Part shown: piece by piece, positions 48,170 to 59,728 of the stretch
Layout: every line of letters begins with the position of its first letter
How positions within the stretch are numbered: the first letter of the stretch is position 1
DNA from: Schistocephalus solidus
Lineage: Eukaryota; Platyhelminthes; Cestoda; Diphyllobothriidea; Diphyllobothriidae
Assembly (NCBI GenBank): GCA_017591395.1
Contig: WEDG01003321.1
Coordinates: 62,001-126,000 of the forward strand
Direction: 5' to 3'
DNA: 64,000 nt
Notes under the pieces: model-generated
The model's input: the letters and a program-made list of their open reading frames with translations, nothing else
What the model was told of the DNA's origin: nothing
The model's database searches: none
Position numbers and translations under genes: made by a program

Positions 48170-50920
48170 ACCCATGGGCAACTCACCGTCCCTGCAATAC
48201 CATACTCTGGATCATACGGTTGAACTCGCTTTAATCGACTGTCAAACGCTTATGATGGTTAGGGTTAGAAAACTAACCTTAAGCATATGGTCGCCTTTAT
48301 TACTGAAGGCTTTGATTCTCATGTCTTACCACAGCATGTATTCAGGGAATGAAATTTTCATCATTTTAATTTTTCTATAAATCTCGCCTTTTCGGTTGGT
48401 TTTTCTTTATGCATAAGCTTAGTCATAACGCTGATGAAATGGGTACAGGGCATGAGTGTGAAACTCCACCGCATTGCGGATGCCCTTGCGATAAGTTTCA
48501 GTAAGATGAAGGTAAATTTAGAGTAAGATGGGTTAGGTTAATGAAATAAATTAAATTCTTTGCGGAAAATCACATAAACTAGGACATGAAACAATTAAAT
48601 TCGCTGTAAACAAAAGAGAAACTTGGAATAGTTGTCTGTTTTTTACTATTAAATAATCATAAAAAAGAAAACTTTATCGAGTATTTAAAATAAAAATATT
48701 TGAAAAGATAAGGGAACTTGAATCAATTAAAAGCATATAATACTTATTAAGTTGTTATTTTTCCATATCTATCTGATGAAAGCAGCTGGAAAAACCTATT
48801 CAAAAGCCGGCATCCTATCATCAGTTAAATTTCTTGTGATATTGCTGCAATAATCAATAATATAATCATACCAAAATAACCCTCTACTTTCGGATTTTAG
48901 TTAACATTTACAAAGATTGTCCAAATAATGTATGCTCTGAAGTTCCGAACTTTGGCTCATAATTTTTTTTTAATTCAAAGGAAGAATTCGGAATGCTAGC
49001 TAGGAAGCTAAGGTTTGCTTTGAGTAAATTCTCAATGCGCACCGTGGTGAAAGGTTGACTAATTTCATGTGACTTTTGGCACCCTCTCGCTCCCTCCACG
49101 CTGATATAAACCTTATAAGCCTCGATGCCCCTTAATTACCCTTTCTCATATTCTTACACCTTAACTGTTGGTTACGACTAACTTTAGCCGGTCTGGTATT
49201 TCTTAAATGTTTTGCTCGTCCTCGTTCTCATACAAATTTAGTTGCCCGACGAGTATTCACCGAAGCAAAACGTATACTCGCAAATTCTACTTTTTTAACT
49301 GTTACATAAATATATTTCCAACTTCATATGTTGATGACTACCGCAATCTTGTCGAAAAGCACTCATGACTTTCCCGATTATGTTTTCTGCATAATTAATT
49401 TTTCCGAATGTTTTTCTTCCCAAGTTTCGTGTTCTCATTTAGATTGTTGGGTTGATTGTCTAATCTAGAAAGCCGCAACATTATGCTTAGCTGTTTACTA
49501 ACTCAGTTATTTTGTGTGCTTCCTGGCTTTTTAACCTGATTCAACAGTTTTGCTTTTTGGTTATGACACCTAATTATGCCTTTCTTTCTTCAGCGGTCCC
49601 TAAAGCCTCCCTAAGATCGGCTCAAAATAAACGAATCTTGATGCTGACTAAACCAAGCACGTACCTGGCTGGCAAGATTACATTCGCAACAAAGTATTAT
49701 AAGCGTATTTCACCTACTTGTATAAAGCATACTGTTTTATAAACATACACTGACGATCAGGACACCATAGAAATATGCTGGATGAACTATTTGTATTACA
49801 CGAAATTAAACGTTTGTAAACTTTATATTCGCATTTAGTCGTTTATGCAAACGTTTTGACTGCAAATGATGGCATCATGGAAACTTGTTGATGACATTAA
49901 TCTGCCAAACAATGTGTTGCAGCAAACGGGTTTCTTCGATCAATTTATAAAATAATGGTTTGAAACTTTTAGTTATTTACCTTTCAAATTTTATCATTTG
50001 CTTGGCATTTACTTCACATGCTCTACATTAACCTTTTACGATTAACCGTTTTCATAGAATATTTTTGAGGATTCTTACATTTTTTGCATTCCTATTTACG
50101 TAATCTCTGTGGTGCAGTTAGAGATATTGCGCAATTTCCACATTCTAAATAATATGGTGCGGAAACATATGCGTATGTTGACCAAAGAAATATACCTGAA
50201 AAACTCTCCTTGCAATCAATTTATCCGAGTTTTTGCGAAGAAAACAACCTGTTAATTATGGGTTCTTACGGCACGACCGGGCATCTTAGTTTTACAGCCG
50301 AGCTTATGACGGCAAATGTGTAAGTGAAATTTATTGTAGAATGTAGCATTAGTGGAGGACGCTACAGCAGAATTGCACGGTCACAATCATCGAAACCCGG
50401 TATAATGATAAAGTCATGTGTGCCAACTCGCACTCATTCTCAAACCTTTGCCACAGTACGCAAAACAGTACTTTGGTATTCATACTTAGTTCGTAGGATA
50501 ACATTTTATGGAGATGAATAGAACTTAGGATTATAAAAGGAAACACAACACGGATCCAAAAGGGAAGATTCCAGTCATCTGTAAAATCTAACAAAACACA
50601 ACGCTAAACGCTTTATCAGCACCCCGGGCTGCAATTTCAATAACGTAGACCTCGAACCACAGATCTCCAATTCCATAGCCAAACTCACGATCTAAAGATG
50701 GCGTACCTTGCGACATATCAGCTGACATTTAAAATTTTATTGTGGCTACTGAAAAGAGTCTGGGATTGTAAAATCGATTATAGTCGAGGATAGGCACGAT
50801 ATATTTCAGACACAGATGATGTAGAAATTTGAGAGCACCTCTTTCACGTCTCCTTTAACAATCTTACTGGCCGTAAGAAACTACTTATGTAGTATAACCT
50901 ATTCTTAATGGTGGAAGATG
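48170..50920. other. AT-rich region, nothing supported
   Basis: Only short frames; no repeat or RNA structure that I could support before the TA microsatellite. Confidence 0.45.
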
Positions 50921-50925
50921 TTCCT

Positions 50926-50973
<48 letters not shown>
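50926..50973. repeat. TA microsatellite
   Basis: An almost pure TA run directly abutting the left edge of the ribozyme-SINE array. Confidence 0.95.
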
Positions 50974-50976
<3 letters not shown>

Positions 50977-51111
50977 AGTGTGGGGCTCACCGATCTGCTT
51001 AAGGAACATGCATGTTCCGTTGTGCTCTGGAGCTCAGACTAGAGCCCTCGCAGGCGGTCGCATAGCGACGTGTAGCATATGATGGAATGGAACCGACAAA
51101 GACAAAGGGGA

Positions 51112-51158
51112 GACCGGGAATGGCCAATTTCTGGCTTATTAGCCGTCATCAGCCAGTC
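51112..51158 (-). ncRNA. Hammerhead, 302-bp family, minus unit 1 (altered)
   Basis: Core CTGATGA (51146-51152, read on the minus strand) and GAAA are present. One extra T in stem III and one extra C before stem I shift the cleavage neighbourhood, so activity is doubtful. Confidence 0.6.
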
Positions 51159-51415
51159 ATACCCAATCCCAAGTGTGGCACACCTGGGATTTCCAACCCG
51201 CGACCTTGGTATTTGAGTCGAACGCTCTACCATTGAGCCACGGGCTCGTTGTTTTGTCGGTTGTGATCGGGAATATGATGATAGTGTGGGGCTCACCGAT
51301 CTGCTTAAGGAACATGCATGTTCCGTTGTGCCCTGAGCTCAGACTAGAGCCCTCGCAGGCGGTCGCATAGCGACGTGTAGCATATGATGGAATGGAACCG
51401 ACAAAGACAAGGGGA

Positions 51416-51459
51416 GACCGGAATGGCCATTTCGGCTTATAAGCCGTCATCAGCCAGTC
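51416..51459 (-). ncRNA. Hammerhead, 302-bp family, minus unit 2 (altered)
   Basis: Core CTGATGA lies at 51447-51453. The base at the foot of stem II before GAAA is missing (AAGCC-GAAA rather than AAGCCA-GAAA), leaving GGCU/AGCC as stem II with an unpaired C. Stem III AUGGCCAU and stem I ACUGG/CCGGU are kept. Possibly active. Confidence 0.65.
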
Positions 51460-51798
51460 ATACCCAATCCCAAGTGTGGCACACCTGGGATTCGAACCCG
51501 CGACCTTTGGTATTTGAGTCGAACGCTCTACCATTGAGCCACGGGCGCGTTGTTTTGTCGGTTGTGCTACATATGCTACATGTCGCTATGCGACCGCCTG
51601 CGAGGGCTCTAGTCTGAGCTCCAGGGCACAACGGAACATGCATGTTCCTTAAGCAGATCGGTGAGCCCCACACTATCATCATATTCCCGATCACAACCGA
51701 CAAAACAACGAGCCCGTGGCTCAATGGTAGAGCGTTCGACTCAAATACCAAAGGTCGCGGGTTCGAATCCCAGGTGTGCCACACTTGGGATTGGGTAT

Positions 51799-51843
51799 GA
51801 CTGGCTGATGACGGCTAATAAGCCAGAATTGGCCATTCCGGTC
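51799..51843 (+). ncRNA. Hammerhead, 302-bp family, plus unit 1 (A15.1 lost)
   Basis: CTGATGA is at 51805-51811 and stem I is GACUGG/CCGGUC, but the second core strand reads GAAT. That destroys the A15.1-U16.1 pair next to the cleavage site, so this unit is probably inactive. Confidence 0.7.
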
Positions 51844-52101
51844 TCCCTTGTCTTTGTCGGTTCCATTCCATCATATGCTACACGTTGCTATGCGACCGCC
51901 TGCGAGGGCTCTAGTCTGAGCTCCAGGGCACAACGGAACATGCATGTTCCTTAAGCAGATCGGTGAGCCCCACACTATCATCATATTCTCGATCACAACC
52001 GACAAAACAACGAGCCCGTGGGCTCAATGGAAGAGCGTTCGACTCAAATACCAAAGGTCGCGGGTTCGAATCCTAGGTGTGCCACACTTGGGATTGGGTA
52101 T

Positions 52102-52146
52102 GACTGGCTGATGACGGCTTATAAGCCAGAAATGGCCATTCCGGTC
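52102..52146 (+). ncRNA. Hammerhead, 302-bp family, plus unit 2
   Basis: All conserved positions are present: CTGATGA at 52108-52114, stem II CGGCU-UAUA-AGCCA, GAAA, stem III AUGG/CCAU without a loop, and stem I GACUGG/CCGGUC. Predicted cleavage is after 52140. Confidence 0.85.
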
Positions 52147-52322
52147 TCCCTTGTCTTTGTCAGTTCCATTCCATCATATGCTACACGTCGCTATGCGACC
52201 GCCTGTGAGGGCTCTAGTCTGAGCTCCAGGGCACAACGGAACATGCATGTTCCTTTAGCAGATCGGTGAGCCCCAACACTATCATCATATTCCCGATCAC
52301 AACCGACAAAACAACGAGCCCG

Positions 52323-52376
52323 TGGCTCAATGGAAGAGCGTTCGACTCAAACACCAAAGGTCGCGGGTTCGAATCC
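52323..52376 (+). promoter_or_regulatory. Internal pol III promoter boxes A and B of a SINE unit
   Basis: Box A TGGCTCAATGG at 52323-52333 fits TRGYNNARNGG. Box B GGTTCGAATCC at 52366-52376 is a perfect match to GGTTCGANTCC. The D-arm GCTC/GAGC of a tRNA is retained, but the acceptor ends do not pair, so this is a tRNA-derived promoter head and not a tRNA. Equivalent boxes occur in the other units; the unit near 52625-52675 has box B damaged (GGTTAAAATCC). Transcription by pol III is inferred. Confidence 0.8.
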
Positions 52377-52404
52377 CAGGTGTGCCACACTTGGGATTGG
52401 GTAT

Positions 52405-52449
52405 GACTGGCTGATGACGGCTAATAAGCCAGAAATGGCCATTCCGGTC
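52405..52449 (+). ncRNA. Hammerhead, 302-bp family, plus unit 3 (reference copy)
   Basis: Type I layout in order: stem I 5' strand GACUGG (52405-52410), CUGAUGA (52411-52417), stem II CGGCU-AAUA-AGCCA (52418-52431) with a C-A foot, GAAA (52432-52435), stem III AUGG/CCAU (52435-52442) with no loop, residue 17 = U (52443), and stem I 3' strand CCGGUC (52444-52449). Cleavage is predicted after 52443. The NUH triplet is AUU, which is allowed. Without a loop, stem III would form more readily between two copies. Confidence 0.88.
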
Positions 52450-52706
52450 TCCCTTGTCTTTGTCGGTTCCATTCCATCATATGCTACACGTCGCTATGCG
52501 ACCGCCTACGAGGGCTCTAGTCTGAGCTCCAGGGCACAACGGAACATGCATGTTCCTTAAGCAGATCGGTGAGCCCCACACTAGCATCATATTCCCGATC
52601 ACAACCGACAAAACAACGAGCCCGTGGCTCAATGGTAGAGCGTTCGACTCAAATACCAAAGGTCGCGGGTTAAAATCCCAGGTGTGCCACACTTGGGATT
52701 GGGTAT

Positions 52707-52751
52707 GACTGGCTGATGACGGCTAATAAGCCAGAAATGGCCATTCCGGTC
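52707..52751 (+). ncRNA. Hammerhead, 302-bp family, plus unit 4
   Basis: Identical core, stems and cleavage neighbourhood to plus unit 3. Cleavage is predicted after 52745. Confidence 0.87.
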
Positions 52752-53008
52752 TCCCTTGTCTTTGTCGGTTCCATTCCATCATATGCTACACGTCGCTATG
52801 CGACCGCCTGCGAGGGCTCTAGTCTGAGCTCCAGGGCACAACGGAACATGCATGTTCCTTAAGCAGATCGGTGAGCCCCACACTATCATCATATTCCCGA
52901 TCACAACCGACAAAACAACGAGCCCGTGGCTCAATGGTAGAGCGTTCGACTCAAATACCAAAGGTCGCGGGTTCGAATCCCAGGTGTGCCACACTTGGGA
53001 TTGGGAAT

Positions 53009-53052
53009 GACTGGCTGATGACGGCTAATAAGCCAAAATGGCCATTCCGGTC
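53009..53052 (+). ncRNA. Hammerhead, 302-bp family, plus unit 5 (G12 deleted)
   Basis: CTGATGA is at 53015-53021, but the second strand reads AGCCAAAATGG, missing the invariant G12 that acts in catalysis. A natural knockout. Confidence 0.75.
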
Positions 53053-53311
53053 TCCCTTGTCTTTGTCGGTTCCATTCCATCATATGCTACACGTCGCTAT
53101 GCGACCGCCTGCGAGGGGCTCTAGTCTGAGCTCCAGGGCACAACGGAACATGCATGTTCCTTTAAGCAAATCGGTGAGCCCCACACTATCATCATATTCC
53201 CGATCACAACCGACAAAACAACGAGCCCGTGGCTCAATGGTAGAGCGTTCGACTCAAATACCAAATGTCGCGGGTTCAAATCCCAGGTGTGCCACACTTG
53301 GGATTGGGTAT

Positions 53312-53356
53312 GACTGGCTGATGACGGCTAATAAGCCAGAAATGGCCATTCCGGTG
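53312..53356 (+). ncRNA. Hammerhead, 302-bp family, plus unit 6
   Basis: The core is intact (CTGATGA 53318-53324, GAAA). The outermost stem I pair is lost because the 3' strand reads CCGGUG. Cleavage is predicted after 53350. Confidence 0.83.
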
Positions 53357-53613
53357 TCCCTTGTCTTTGTCGGTTCCATTCCATCATATGCTTCACGTCG
53401 CTATGCGACCGCCTGCGAGGGCTCTAGTCTGAGCTCCAGGGCACAACGGAACATGCATGTTCCTTAAGCAGATCGGTGAGCCCCACACTATCATCATATT
53501 CCCGATCACAACCGACAAAACAACGAGCCCGTGGCTCAATGGTAGAGCGTTCGACTCAAATACCAAAGGTCGCGGGTTCGAATCCCAGGTGTGCCACACT
53601 TGGGATTGGGTAT

Positions 53614-53658
53614 GACTGGCTGATGATGGCTAATAAGCCAGAAATGGCCATTCCGGTC
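53614..53658 (+). ncRNA. Hammerhead, 302-bp family, plus unit 7 (perfect stem II)
   Basis: The foot of stem II is U-A here (UGGCU-AAUA-AGCCA) instead of the C-A mismatch of its neighbours, so all three stems pair. Cleavage is predicted after 53652. The unit is cut off about 20 bases later where the 354-bp family begins. Confidence 0.88.
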
Positions 53659-53912
53659 TCCCTTGTCTTTGTCGGAATAATCAAGGAAATAATTTCTGAA
53701 ATTATTAAGTGCAGGACATGGAGTCAGGTGATTCGGACATGAGTTTTTAGGGTCAGAGCCGAAATTTCAATGAACATTTGGGTCGAAGACAATCAACCAC
53801 TGTGGAATAACCACGTAATGCCCATTCTACAAACAAGTAGTACTACAAGTAGTATGAATCTTATATGGCAAAGACGTTATACCGTACTTCCGACATAGAT
53901 ACTAGCTAAAAG

Positions 53913-53984
53913 CCCAGACACGTGTTTCGCCGATGTTTCTGCTGCTGTGTGACACAGCAACGAGGGGTTCGGCTCCTCAGTGGG
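53913..53984 (-). ncRNA. Hammerhead, 354-bp family, minus unit
   Basis: Read on the minus strand, it has CCCA, CUGAGGA (53974-53980), stem II GCCGA/UCGGC, GAAA (53925-53928), loopless stem III ACAC/GUGU, C17 and UGGG. All are intact, with predicted cleavage between 53917 and 53916. Confidence 0.83.
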
Positions 53985-54148
53985 TCCCCCAGCGTTCTCT
54001 ATGCGGTTTCTGGTATATGGGTCTGACCCTAAAAAGTCATGTCCGAATCACCTGACTCCATGTCCTGCACTTAATAATTTCAGAAATTATTTCCTCGATT
54101 ATTCTCTGGAGTCCATATACCAGAAACCGCATAGAGAACGCTGGGGGA

Positions 54149-54220
54149 CCCACTGAGGAGCCGAACCCCTCGTTGCTGTGTCACACAGCAGCAGAAACAT
54201 CGGCGAAACACGTGTCTGGG
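54149..54220 (+). ncRNA. Hammerhead, 354-bp family, plus unit 1
   Basis: CUGAGGA is at 54153-54159 and GAAA at 54205-54208, with stems as in the reference copy at 54858. Cleavage is predicted after 54216. Confidence 0.84.
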
Positions 54221-54502
54221 CTTTTAGCTAGTATCTATGTCGGAAGTACGGTGTAACGTCTTTGCCATATAAGATTCATACTACTTGTAGTACTACTTGT
54301 TTGTAGAATGGGCATTACGTGGTAATTCCACAGTGGTTGATTGTCTTCGACCCAAATGTTTATTCAAATTTCGGGTCTGACCCTAAAAACTCATGTCCGT
54401 ATCACCTGACTCCATGTCCTGCACTTAATAATTTCAGAAATTATTTCCCCGATTATTCTCTGGAGTCCATATACCAGAAACCGCATAGAGAACGCTGGGG
54501 TA

Positions 54503-54574
54503 CCCACTGAGGAGCCGAACCCCTCGTTGCTGTGTCACACAGCAGCAGAAACATCGGCAAAACACGTGTCTGGG
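54503..54574 (+). ncRNA. Hammerhead, 354-bp family, plus unit 2 (G12 to A)
   Basis: CUGAGGA is at 54507-54513, but the second core strand is AAAA (54559-54562) in place of GAAA. The stems are kept. Loss of the catalytic G12 should abolish cleavage of this unit. Confidence 0.78.
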
Positions 54575-54857
54575 CTTTTAGCTAGTATCTATGTCGGAAG
54601 TACGGTATAACGTCTTTGCCATATAAGATTCATACTACTTGTAGTACTACTTGTTTTGTAGAATGGGCATTACGTGGTTATTCCACAGTGGTTGATTGTC
54701 TTCGACCCAAATGTTCATTCAAATTTCGGGTCTGACCCTAAAAACTCATGTCCGAATCACCTGACTCCATGTCCTGCACTTAATAATTTCAGAAATTATT
54801 TCCTTGATTATTCTCTGGAGTCCATATACCAGAAACCGCATAGAGAACGCTGGGGGA

Positions 54858-54929
54858 CCCACTGAGGAGCCGAACCCCTCGTTGCTGTGTCACACAGCAG
54901 CAGAAACATCGGCGAAACACGTGTCTGGG
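54858..54929 (+). ncRNA. Hammerhead, 354-bp family, plus unit 3 (reference copy)
   Basis: Order: stem I CCCA (54858-54861), CUGAGGA (54862-54868), stem II GCCGA (54869-54873) pairing UCGGC (54909-54913), GAAA (54914-54917), loopless stem III ACAC/GUGU (54917-54924), C17 (54925), and stem I UGGG (54926-54929). The cleavage triplet GUC is the classical preferred one. Stem II continues past an internal loop into a 7-bp hairpin UGCUGUG-UCA-CACAGCA. An outer GCU/AGC pair can extend stem I across an internal loop, a feature that could support the loop-loop contact natural hammerheads use. Confidence 0.86.
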
Positions 54930-55212
54930 CTTTTAGCTAGTATCTATGTCGGAAGTACGGTATAACGTCTTTGCCATATAAGATTCATACTACTTGTAGT
55001 ACTACTTGTTTGTAGAATGGGCATTACGTGGTTATTCCACAGTGGTTGATTGTCTTCGACCCAAATGTTCATTGAAATTTCGGGTCTGACCCTATAAAAC
55101 TCATGTCCGAATCACCTGACTCCATGTCCTGCACTTAATAATTTCAGAAATTATTTCCTTGATTATTCTCTGGAGTCCATATACCAGAAACCGCATAGAG
55201 AACGCTGGGGGA

Positions 55213-55284
55213 CCCACTGAGGAGCCGAACCCCTCGTTGCTGTGTCACACAGCAGCAGAAACATCGGCGAAACACGTGTCTGGG
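55213..55284 (+). ncRNA. Hammerhead, 354-bp family, plus unit 4
   Basis: Intact core (CUGAGGA 55217-55223, GAAA 55269-55272) and stems. Cleavage is predicted after 55280. The unit is truncated downstream by the TA tract. Confidence 0.84.
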
Positions 55285-55314
55285 CTTTTTAGCTAGTATC
55301 TATGTCGGAAGTAC

Positions 55315-55344
55315 GTGCATATATATATACGTCTATATATAGCT

Positions 55345-55375
<31 letters not shown>
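55315..55375. repeat. TA-rich microsatellite
   Basis: An interrupted TA run separating the 354-bp array from the sister SINE subfamily. Confidence 0.95.
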
Positions 55376-55378
<3 letters not shown>

Positions 55379-55400
55379 CAGATTGATATTACCGACAAAG

Positions 55401-55460
55401 ACAAGAGAGATCGTAATGGCCATTTCTGGCTTACTTGCCATCAACAGCCAGTCATACCCA
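55401..55460 (-). ncRNA. Hammerhead relic, sister subfamily, minus unit 1
   Basis: The core reads CTGTTGA on the minus strand (55441-55447), with A6 changed to T, and stem II no longer pairs fully. Predicted inactive. Confidence 0.6.
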
Positions 55461-55716
55461 ACCACAGGTGCTGCGTCGCCCAAGGCTCGAATTTAAGACC
55501 TGTTGGGCAGAAGTCCAATGCTCTACCCACTGCGCCACAAGCTCGTTTTCTTGCCGGTTTCGATCGGGAATATTAACAATGGTAGTCGGGCGCTCACCGA
55601 TCGGTTACAGGTCTCACTCGTCCCGCTGTGCCTTGGGGCGTACAATTCAGCCCCGCCAGTAGCCGCAGAGTGGCTAGTGATATAGGCAGAATGATATTTC
55701 CGAAAAAGAAAAAAGA

Positions 55717-55761
55717 GACTGGAATGGCCATTTCTGGCTTATAAGCCATCATCAGCCAGCC
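55717..55761 (-). ncRNA. Hammerhead, sister subfamily, minus unit 2 (perfect)
   Basis: On the minus strand: stem I GGCUGG/CCAGUC, CUGAUGA (55749-55755), stem II UGGCU-UAUA-AGCCA, GAAA, loopless stem III AUGG/CCAU. Every stem pairs. Cleavage is predicted between 55723 and 55722. Confidence 0.88.
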
Positions 55762-56123
55762 ATACCCAACCCCAGGCGCTGCGGCGCCCGAGGCTCAAAC
55801 TCGCGATTTTTGGGCAGAAGTCGAAAGCTCTACCCACTGCGCCACGAGCTCGTTGTATTGCCGGTTTCGATCGGGAATATTAAAAAATGGTAGTTGGGTG
55901 CTCACCTATCGTTTAAAGGACTCGGGGCTGTAGAGAAAGCCGCAAGGCACAGCGGGACGAGTGAGTCCTTTAACCGATCAGTGAGCGCGAAACTGCCATT
56001 GTTAATATTCCCGATCTATAACGGCAAGAAAACGAGCTCGTGGCGCAGTGGGTAGAGCAATGGACTTCGCCCAACAGGTTGCGAGTTCAAGCCTCGAGAA
56101 CCGCAGCGCCTGGGGTTGGGTAT

Positions 56124-56168
56124 GGCTGGCTGATGATGGCTATTAAGCCAGAAATTGCCATTCCAGTC
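56124..56168 (+). ncRNA. Hammerhead, sister subfamily, plus unit
   Basis: Stem I GGCUGG/CCAGUC, CUGAUGA (56130-56136), stem II UGGCU-AUUA-AGCCA, GAAA (56151-56154). Stem III has one mismatch (AUUG/CCAU). Cleavage is predicted after 56162. Confidence 0.82.
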
Positions 56169-56996
56169 TCTCTTGTCTTTGTCGGTTATATCATTCTGCC
56201 TATATTACTAACCGCTCTGCGGCTGCTGGTGTGGCTGTAGTGTAAGCCCCAAGACACAGCGGGACGAGTGAGTCCTGTAACCGATCGGTGACTGCCCACC
56301 TACCATTATATATATATGGGGAAGGGCCTGGGCATTGGCGGTGATGGTCCGGGGCGCTGGTAAGTTTCATGCCACTCTTTTAGTCTTGGCGGCGGTGATC
56401 CTGTTGGCTTAGTAGACTACTTACCCTGTCTTCTCTGTCCTTCTCAAAGAAGGTCGATTCCGGGCGAGGTCCTCCCAGGTCACCGGGTTCATCTGCAGTT
56501 GCTTCAGATAAGTCTTCAGAGTGTACTTGTAGCGTCGTACTTGACGCACTTATCGATGAGAACAAAAGGCCACATCTCTATAGAAGATTCCTTTGGGGAC
56601 TCGTTCGTCGTCAGTCCTCACAAAATGCCCGCTCCATCACAGTTGCAGTTGTTTCAGCTGAGCATAAATGCTGCGAAGGCCTGTTCGTTCCAACATTTCC
56701 GTGTACGGTATCCTGTCTGCCATGTCAGCTTTAGTGTTCTGCGAAGACAGTTGAGGTGGAAGTGGGGTAGCTTCTGCGTCCAGGTTTTTTCTCCCTTTAC
56801 AGCAGCGTCGGCAATATGACAGCATTTACGTCTTGAGTTTAGTGCTAAGGTGGAGACATTGCCAATTCCTGACCACGTTCTGCATGCGTCCAAAGGCTTG
56901 GCTGGCTTTGGCGATCCGATGAGCAATCTCATCATCGACTTTGGTACTGTGGGAGAGATTGCTACCCAGGTACGTGAAGGTATCCAAAGCTTTCCG

Positions 56997-57332
56997 TTAG
57001 GCATCATTAACATTGATGTGAGCTGCAAAGGAAGTGGTATTGGGCGGCGGCTGGTGCATCAAAACCACTTTCTCAGTGTTAATGCAAAATCCGAAGTTGC
57101 TACAAGCAGCAGCAAATAGGTGCATGCTCCTTTGCATTTCCTCTTCTGTCATTGCATTGAGTGCGAAATCGTCAGAGAAGAGAAGTTCGTTGATGGTAGC
57201 TGTGGAGACACGCGAGCGGAAGTGCATCCGACGTTGGTTGAGGAGTCGGCCGTCCATCCGGTAGGCGATACGGATCCCGGGGCGTTCTTCACGACATTGC
57301 AGAGAACCTGAGACTTCAGAGGGTAGGTGCAA
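56997..57332 (-). pseudogene. LINE copy B RT motif C region
   Basis: A 111-codon frame with RPGIRIAYRMDGRLLNQRR, ELLFSDDFALN (the catalytic Asp pair is kept although the preceding Ala is Ser), EEMQRSMHLF and INTEKVVLMHQPPP. It is joined to the motif A frame at 57360-57551 only through a disrupted stretch. Confidence 0.75.
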
Positions 57333-58780
57333 TGACGCAGCACTGCTTCACTCTGTTGGTCACTGCGAAAGCTTCGGATACTGTCCCGTTTTCAGAAACG
57401 TGCGCATCATACCATCGTGAAGCTGACGTACCATATGCGTGAAACGTTCAGGACAGCCGAATTTCTGCATGATTTTCGACAGCCCACCACAATTCACCGT
57501 GTAAAAGGCTTTCGTCAGATCCACGAAGGTAGTGTAGAGGTGAGTCCGCATCTTCTGGCACTTTTCTTGCAGCTGTCAAGCGGCGAAGATCATGTCGATC
57601 GTTCCTCGGTGTTGTCAGAAGCCACATTGGCTTTCCGGGATCAGTCCTTGCTCCAGTTAAGCGTTCAGGCGATTGAGGAGTATGCAAGCAAAGATCTTTC
57701 CAGCGATGTTTAACAGCGAGATTCCTCGGTGGTTGTCGCAGAGTTGGCGGTTCCCTTTCATCTTGTATAGGTGGACAATGGTTGCGTCTTTGAACTCCTG
57801 AGGGCCTTACCCTTGGTGCCACATCTCCTGGAGGAGCATTGTGAGTCGGTTCATCAGTTTGGGTCAACCATGCTGGTAAATCTCAGCAGGGATCGCGTCC
57901 GAGCCAGGTGTTTTACCGCTGGAGAGTCGCTGCACGGCTCTGCTGGTTTCTTGGAGAGAGGGCAGGAGATCAAGGGTGGCGTTGATTTTCACTTAAGGCA
58001 GGTGATCAATGACGGCGTCGGAGATAATTGAGGGCTGATTGAGAACGCTCTGGAAATGTTATGCCCATCGCTTCAGGATTCACGTTTTCTCAGTAAGTAG
58101 CGTCCTGCCGTCGGCACGGAGAAAAGGGGCGGCGCCTTTGACGGGAGGTCCACAGACAGCCATGATGGCAGCGAAGATGTTCTCCCATTCGTTTCAATCA
58201 ACGAATCCTTGGATTTTCTAGGCTTCGCGCGTCATCCAGGCATCCTGCATCTCCCGCATCCGTTTCTGTACAAGGTGGCGATTACCGTAGAAGGCTGTCT
58301 TGTTTGCAGCAGTAGGGCTATCAACGTAGGCTTTGTGCAACTCGTTCTTCTCGACGAGCAGAGAGTTGATAGCTGCGTCGTTGTCATCGAACCAATGTTG
58401 GTGCTGATGACGTGCGCAGCTGAGGACATCCAGGGCGGTTGATTGGATGGTGTCCCTCAGCTGACAACAGCGCTTCTCCACGGAGATGTCCGCGTCGGCG
58501 ACTGGAAAGGTGGCTAGTCGGTTGGCCAGTTCATTGCTAAAATGGAGATAGTGAGCAGGCATATTCAACAAGACAGTGTTCAAATTACCTTGTGGTCACT
58601 TACCTTGGGGTCGTCTGCATGGTTGCAGATGAAGCCTCATCTTGGAGATGACGAGGCGGTGATCAGTCCGTCCGCCAGCCCTTGGGGCCGCCTTTGTCAC
58701 CAGCACGTCCTGTTGATCTCGCCTTCGGACCAGAACATAGTTCATGAGGTGCCATTCTCTCGAACGTGTGTGTACCCAGG

Positions 58781-59527
58781 TCAATTTTGCTGCATAGGGA
58801 GGCGGAAGAAGGTGTTGGTCAGCAGGAGACGGTGTTCCGCACACTTTAACAGAAGAAGGTGGGCGTTATCGTTACGGTTACCGAGACAATGGGGACCCAG
58901 CTCTCCTCTCCAGGAGGCACGGTTTGTCCCGACGTGGGTGTTAAATTCACCAAGGACAAATAACTTATCCACCTTCGGCACAGTTGTCAGCAGGGCGTGC
59001 AGGTCCTCGTAACATTTGTCTTTTGCCGCATCAGAGCTCGTCATTGGGGGAGCGAAGGCACTGATGATGGTGGCGAACTTGTCTCCCAGAAGAGGCATGC
59101 GGAGGCTCATCAGGTAAACATTGATACCCTGCGGCAAACAGGGCAGACGTCCCACTATGTCGCTCTGGATGACAAAGGCGACACCAGCGTTACGTTGCTG
59201 TGCCTTTGACTGGCCACTCCAGAAGAAGGCGTAGCCGTACCCACCTCCTCCAGCTGACCTTATTCTAAGAATCGGGTCTCGCAGAGAGCAGCAATATCCA
59301 CCTTGTAGGGCGCTAGATCCCGAGCGACTAGTGCCATCCTCCGTGCCGGTCGGTTGCTCCTGGGATTGTTTAAAAGAGATCGAACATTCCAGGCTACTAG
59401 AGTGAGCAGGCTCACTTGAGCAGTCCAGGGGGTACCCCGGAGAGTTTGTTGGGGGATTGGGCGAGAAATTGTTGTTGATATTGTTTAAAGTTTTTTCGAA
59501 CGCATGTAATCGCAGTCTGCTATCCAT
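58781..59527 (-). pseudogene. LINE copy B endonuclease region, longest frame
   Basis: A 248-codon frame starts at ATG 59527. Its first third is partly out of register with the true endonuclease frame, which carries WNVRSL and ETRF in the neighbouring phase and meets a stop just after ETRF. From FFWSG onward this frame is correct and contains GEFNTHVGT and [13 protein letters not shown] before the next frameshift. The conserved Asp of GDFN is Glu. Not a working nuclease. Confidence 0.75.
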
Positions 59528-59728
59528 GGTCTGCTTCGGCTGTCCTGAGACCCCCTGCCCCGCGAGGGTTTAAGCAGTGCTGTTCCTTAATAAGGCTGCT
59601 GAATCATCCCAGGTGGCTACAGACCTTCACTTTGGATAACAATTTGGGTTAATGAGAGAATGCCCGATTCGCCTGGGCCACCTACGTGATTGCTGGGTAC
59701 CCTCCCCTTAGGTCTTTTTCGATGGTTA

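Follow-up and report, generated by a model that had tools for sequence, protein, structure and literature searches.

A 354-bp tandem repeat family with a type I hammerhead in the tapeworm Schistocephalus solidus: a probable retrozyme with an insertion anatomy like that of Penelope-like elements

The closest described relatives of the repeat family considered here are the metazoan non-LTR retrozymes (Cervera and de la Pena 2020, PMC7229834), with which, as far as the excerpted text of that paper goes, it has in common tandem units, a type I hammerhead, a GC content such as its own 44%, a structured RNA and the presence of more than one family per genome. The likeness extends to detail, since the second axolotl retrozyme family in the same excerpts also has a 2-bp stem III closed by a tetraloop. 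Penelope-like elements (PLEs) have been proposed as the helpers of animal retrozymes (PMC7229834, PMC7761336), and were called 'a strong candidate' for moving them on the grounds that type I hammerheads occur in both, that both are found in tandem and that the two co-exist (PMC7229834). The biochemistry of a PLE protein has been described (PMC11167929): it uses AT-rich targets, extends both strands, initiates internally and leaves tails of 30-40 nt, and hammerhead mutants of the anole element PAc still insert in vitro, with insertion unaffected. Inverted terminal copies are on record for PLE insertions (PMC3846280, in the part consulted). More distant are the schistosome hammerhead repeats SM-alpha and the W-elements (PMC8490949), alike in being flatworm repeats associated with hammerheads, and the plant LTR retrozymes (PMC4918200), which are equally non-autonomous and carry hammerheads. 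According to the passages compared, however, these plant elements have a type III hammerhead, LTRs, PBS/PPT and a Gypsy partner, whereas the family described below has a type I hammerhead and tandem units (PMC7229834, PMC7761336).

The window, that is, the whole 64,000-nucleotide stretch of S. solidus DNA that was analysed, holds at 53675-55315 3.7 tandem units and one inverted unit of 354/355 bp, carrying five copies of the canonical type I hammerhead motif, and the existence of a 354-bp tandem family with its own hammerhead at this place is confirmed. Tandem Repeats Finder reports 54019-55315 with a period of 355, 3.7 copies and 98% matches. The blastn map resolves this plus-strand array into a 5'-truncated first unit (unit 158-355) at 54019..54216, full unit 1 (354 bp, running from one predicted cut to the next) at 54217..54570, full units 2 and 3 (355 bp each) at 54571..54925 and 54926..55280, and a 3'-truncated last unit (unit 1-34) at 55281..55315. 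A first-pass annotation of this DNA had seen a single tandem family at 53677..55314; its tandem units stand, but it did not set apart a copy on the minus strand at 53675..54018, which lies head-to-head with the main array and, read outward from its head, comprises unit 252-355 followed by 1-243 (inverted repeat 53675-54020 / 54113-54458, 98%). The idea that this inverted copy is a fold-back of the unit facing it was dropped, the copy being closer to plus-strand unit 3 (2 internal differences) than to that facing unit. A match to MIR5084 at 53962-54172 (68.7 bits, gathering score 110) corresponds to the palindrome of the 354-bp family and not to a microRNA.

The motifs of a hammerhead, previously read from the sequence in the right order and with a GUC ending at 54925, were recovered both by motif and by unit mapping. 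A covariance-model search, which had been suggested as a check, places type I hammerheads on the plus strand at 54136..54230, 54490..54584, 54845..54939 and 55200..55295, with predicted cuts after 54216, 54570, 54925 and 55280, and on the minus strand at 53903..53997 in the inverted copy, with a predicted cut between 53917 and 53916. All five score 123-127 bits with our own model, which was trained on 80 copies, one of them from the window, so that copies related to these 80 are bound to match. The Rfam Hammerhead_1 model, which is independent of ours, finds the copies at 54845..54939 and 55200..55295 with 22.8 bits and an E value of 0.11, under the gathering score of 34, and at the gathering threshold it reports no hammerhead in the window; run over the whole assembly, RF00163 gave no match anywhere, the controls being equally silent, which makes that search uninformative. 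In the structure, stem I consists of CCCA/UGGG, an internal loop and then GCU/AGC, and stem II of GCCGA/UCGGC bearing a 7-bp hairpin; internal loops are present in stem I and, in stem II, beyond UCGGC. Stem III is the palindrome ACACGUGU, and ACAC/GUGU, as it had been written, would be loopless; in the monomer only 2 bp and an ACGU tetraloop remain, and cleavage would therefore probably work best in a dimer. The centroid of an unprompted RNA fold, also computed for the copy at 54845..54939, draws stems I and II together with the postulated 7-bp hairpin and leaves the core unpaired, although the stability of the hammerhead segment is not significant against shuffles (z -1.55, 15/200 as stable).

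In an alignment of 80 of the 102 distinct hammerhead segments (22 were left out), one pair of the stem II hairpin covaries via a wobble intermediate (UA 52 / UG 19 / CG 8 among the 80 distinct sequences). Double-change cells number 9 against 3.7 in shuffled alignments (0/500), and the covariation score and the number of cells paired are each reached in 1/500; double-change pairs (2; 216/500) and further pair types (19; 154/500) are unremarkable, and some slid versions of the structure show more double-change pairs (up to 5). This test takes its structure from the same sequences, most copies of which are young. Across 332 near-full units collected from the 604-Mb assembly, substitutions per site are 1.78 in the core vs 3.01 in the rest, a conservation that is not significant (66 substitutions over the 37 sites of the core, a count equalled or undercut in 14% of mask rotations). 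The core strings CTGANGA and CGAAA...GTC end are both kept in 306/332 of these units, the first being lost in 14, the second in 8 and both in 4. A hammerhead structure is present in the 354-bp unit, and cleavage after the GUC would be expected.

Insertions of the 354-bp family are dispersed across the assembly. The array set consists of 26 regions on 23 contigs, in which arrays reach 30 or more units (up to 30 blast matches fall in one extracted stretch, and contig C6738 is almost entirely made of units). Differences in unit length in arrays L009-L034 come mostly from indels in homopolymers, at a small number of positions common to many arrays; as these look like sequencing (long-read) errors, substitutions alone were used in the array statistics, for the 314/332 units at least 95% identical to the consensus (the 18 below were left out). 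Units of the same array differ by a mean of 2.33 substitutions vs 3.84 for units of different arrays (none of 500 label shuffles brought the mean within arrays below 3.44), and neighbouring units differ slightly less than distant ones (2.09 vs 2.46). This homogeneity fits one or few founding templates as well as local homogenisation, and the data separate neither from the other. The size of 354/355 bp lies within the range of about 150-450 bp given for the tandem repeats of retrozymes, the GC content of the unit is 0.441, under 50%, and the whole linear unit RNA is more structured than shuffles (z -2.72, 1/100 as stable). The unit is too short for an ORF with reverse transcriptase (RT) and GIY-YIG domains.

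The plus strand of the unit bears no A or B box beyond chance, unlike a tRNA-type SINE (best A box with 1 mismatch, as in 45% of shuffles; best B box with 3 mismatches, as in 67%), in agreement with the earlier statement that no tRNA promoter is visible, and ARAGORN finds no tRNA within 50000-57000. SM-alpha, in contrast, is reported to carry a pol III promoter, and the 354-bp unit differs from it in lacking one on this strand. On the minus strand, the stem II region contains GGTTCGGCTCC, a B box with 1 mismatch that 1% of shuffles reach, and a pol III promoter may exist on the antisense strand.

Judged by eye, 16 of 24 3' ends of arrays and fragments within extracted stretches pass directly into TA-rich repeats and two more reach TA after a short gap (4 nt for the window array, a 26-nt PLE tail at L019); the remaining six are not at TA (the inverted copy of the window, the inverted arm of L009, L011, the fragment at L015, L023 and L034). 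For comparison, when 9140 stretches of 23 nt were sampled from the window, only 24 contained (TA)4. A fixed rule (unit sequence with at most 2 mismatches in 14 nt beside at least five TA repeats), applied to the window and 26 loci, yields 14 3'-side junctions, six at unit 50 (GCC|ATATA), five at unit 235 (CCCG|ATATA) and one each at unit 57, 170 and 227; those at 170 and 227, in palindromic stretches, are probably mirror images of 5' junctions. On the 5' side the same rule gives seven junctions, all at different positions, including 2 and 4. The unit-50 junction, searched as an exact 27-mer, is present at 455 places in the assembly (reversed control, 0). The window array ends at neither preferred position: it stops at unit 34, and TA-rich DNA begins 4 nt past 55315 (tract 55319..55376 by the repeat finder). 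Since TA tracts lie on one or both sides, target duplications are unreadable. Head-to-head arms like those of the window, where both its 302-bp (see below) and 354-bp families show them, recur at L009, L020, L022 and L048.

Some copies begin where the hammerhead is predicted to cut. Thirteen places (control, 0) have (TA)n joined directly to TGGGCTTTTAGC, which is exactly the 5' end that cleavage is predicted to leave; the count was made for that start only. Twelve of these were inspected: six are unit 1-55 between TA tracts (L036, L040, L041, L043, L044 and L045, the 3'-side tract being short at L043 and L045), L038 is unit 1-40, L039, L042 and L046 extend further, L035 has a compound structure and L037 mixes pieces of the two families. 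A search with an open gap, in which the start is not presupposed, gave 33 distinct places among the first 100 of 187 overlapping matches; five of the 33, among the matches listed, lie at the exact cleavage distance, with P 0.003 for a preset position and P 0.09 for any position reaching 5 (among the matches listed, and with three of the 33 places, at the lower gap bound, left out of the P values). Four of the 33, again among the matches listed, start six nt upstream of the cleavage nucleotide (gap 45). Among the five at the exact distance, C2267 and C3151 only are confirmed by sequence, C396, C470 and C755 being without the exact cleavage-start 12-mer. The gap-45 places are C55, C1664, C2207 and C2291, and the start at C55 lies inside the stem III palindrome. 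In the first 20 of the unit-50 junctions listed, a start at the cleavage nucleotide is never seen: 18 continue upstream through the hammerhead and two are rearranged or head-to-head. Starts at the cleavage nucleotide are real, but they are a minority, and a preference for this nucleotide as 5' end is not established and is suggestive only, because two of five places are confirmed, P is 0.09 and another position is at 4/33.

PLEs are resident in this genome. A GIY-YIG search of the assembly returned five places, and in one PLE locus, L051, which combines a GIY-YIG domain (E 5e-6) with an RT (RVT_1, E 2e-11), the element runs out into (TA)10. With pieces of L051 as queries, a PLE RT or endonuclease was found in 8 of the 26 array loci vs 0 in the 64-kb window, which is the sole comparison. 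Ten matches to the PLE 3' region were inspected, and eight of the nine with flank reach a TA tract within about 50 nt (that of L048 has only four repeats); L047 leads into a 302-like repeat and L032 is cut off. A conserved PLE tail lies behind this 3' region in L020, L041, L047 and L048, and the tail followed by A(TA)n is found at 92 exact places (control, 0). PLEs and the 354-bp family also meet directly. In L009, L024, L025 and L041, one common TA tract lies between a 354 copy and a PLE arranged tail-to-tail, and there are three joints between the two: (i) in L013 the PLE RT runs into the 5' end of an array in the same sense, (ii) in L019 an array is followed by the exact last 26 nt of the PLE tail and then by (TA)n, an arrangement with a single place in the genome, and (iii) in L047 a PLE ORF comes close behind a 354-like hammerhead. 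Each of these joints may have arisen by template switching or by nested insertion.

How, then, are these observations best read? The first-pass annotation had left the choice between a retrozyme and a derivative of a PLE terminal repeat. Unit size, tandem arrays, hammerhead, GC content and structured RNA all argue for the former, and the 354-bp unit is a new sequence family of the known metazoan non-LTR retrozymes; PLEs look like the partner that moves it rather than its source. Taken as a whole, the interpretation that we consider probable is that of a non-coding, non-autonomous metazoan non-LTR retrozyme copied by PLEs into (TA)n. It has in common with GIY-YIG PLEs (PMC11167929, PMC3846280, as far as the excerpts reach) AT-rich targets, an internal start downstream of the hammerhead, 30-40 nt tails and inverted head-to-head terminal copies, while differing from them in its lack of any coding sequence and of similarity to the one PLE compared. 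From the metazoan retrozymes of PMC7229834, as excerpted, it differs in being a tapeworm sequence family, in its two internal 3' points in (TA)n, in having some 5' ends at the cleavage nucleotide and in its head-to-head arms; no such insertion anatomy appears in the excerpted parts of that paper. As to the suggestion that the family may not have been described, no tapeworm hammerhead repeat appears in the titles and abstract openings of the open-licence papers searched; platyhelminth retrozyme-like repeats are mentioned in general in PMC7229834, within the same excerpts.

The likely mechanism is target-primed reverse transcription, carried out by a PLE enzyme, that starts internally and often proceeds on both sides. 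Arrays would be transcribed into multi-unit RNA, in which the type I hammerhead of each unit would cut after GUC, probably best as a dimer, and the unit RNA, linear or perhaps circularised, would be copied into (TA)n by the RT/GIY-YIG protein of a resident PLE. Copying would mostly initiate inside the RNA, just 3' of GCC (unit 50) or CCCG (unit 235), with priming on the TA-repeat DNA seen at the junctions, and by going round or along several units it would generate tandem arrays that end at preferred points on the 3' side but begin at varying ones on the 5' side. Where the hammerhead had cut the template, synthesis would halt at the cleavage nucleotide, and this may be the cause of the 55-nt inserts seen between TA tracts. 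Frequent extension of both ends of the DNA break would produce the head-to-head arms. One could go further and, more tentatively than for the interpretation itself, see in this genome a record of the retrozyme life cycle, in which the PLE would insert both cut linear and multi-unit RNA, copies starting at the cleavage nucleotide would be footprints of ribozyme activity in the germ line and joints would be template switches that identify the enzyme, a possibility towards which we do not lean.

That a LINE (an EEP-type non-LTR element) moves the retrozyme by ordinary target-primed reverse transcription, proximity to PLEs merely reflecting common AT-rich targets, seems unlikely. Cervera and de la Pena left both LINEs and PLEs open (PMC7229834, in the excerpted text), and LINE fragments do lie in the window, at 56317-59569 and about 45.9-46.5 kb, one match (the window's) stopping at (TA)5. 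However, TA tracts are met by 8/9 PLE ends and by 92 exact PLE tails, whereas among five LINE 3'-region matches, whose true ends were not located, that one stops at TA and three continue into a common downstream sequence, and head-to-head arms have been described for PLEs (PMC3846280, in part). The best protein matches of the window LINE fragment and of a PLE of this assembly come from Spirometra, Sparganum and Schistocephalus, in keeping with a diphyllobothriidean host.

It is quite unlikely, too, that the family is an ordinary satellite whose hammerhead is a relic and whose copies spread through unequal crossing-over or through excised DNA circles that re-integrate at TA repeats. A satellite would agree with the long homogeneous arrays, with units that are alike within arrays and slightly more so between neighbours, with a core that is not demonstrably conserved and with the ATATA microhomology at the unit-50 junction, but one 3' junction at 455 places combined with scattered 5' ends, short inserts with the cleavage nucleotide as 5' end and the head-to-head arms all argue against it. 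Descent of the unit from a PLE terminal repeat (pLTR) that decayed and amplified on its own is very improbable: pLTRs carry type I hammerheads (PMC7229834, PMC7761336, as excerpted) and several loci have a PLE next to the unit, but such a derivation is unsupported, since the comparison with a PLE end that had been proposed, made with the 3.2-kb locus L051 (RT, endonuclease and 255-nt 3' region), gave no match to the unit at E<=1. PLE loci L047-L051 have no hammerhead besides the 354-like units of L047 and L048, and in their internal loops stems I and II follow the canonical retrozyme form, unlike the minimal form of PLEs.

As for the PLE partner, the junction anatomy bears on the question of what moves animal retrozymes, and, read from the DNA of one genome, it lends new support to the PLE-helper proposal. 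With hundreds of junctions, two preferred 3' points, the same TA targets as PLEs and a few copies that begin at the cleavage nucleotide, this question becomes testable with a single purified protein and a 400-nt RNA.

The neighbouring 302-bp family deserves a description of its own. It has, as had been claimed, no body sequence in common with the 354-bp unit (no match better than E 0.8, the longest 27 nt). Its inverted arm, of about 2 units on the minus strand at 50968..51566, has its 3' end in a (TA)n tract (50925..50973, repeat finder), and its direct arm, of 7 units on the plus strand at 51570..53675, abuts the inverted 354 copy at 53675, the whole 302 + 354 composite being flanked by TA tracts at 50925-50973 and 55319-55376. 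Its units start with a tRNA-like head, for which the Rfam tRNA model gives 35.7 bits in one copy, and they contain a hammerhead-like stretch with the predicted cut placed at AUU|CCGG rather than at GUC; genome-wide, inserts with a cleavage end number 0 for AUU|CCGG and 0 for GUC. At L037 (223-640), one copy switches repeatedly between short pieces of the 354-bp and the 302-bp family, a mosaic that may be due to recombination or to an error of the assembly consensus, and this locus was excluded from the arguments on mechanism. Many 3' ends of the 302-bp family also lie in TA tracts, and three diverged, SINE-like relatives of its unit, 76-78% identical, are found at window positions 55391-56187, one of them sitting just past the TA tract that ends the 354 array.
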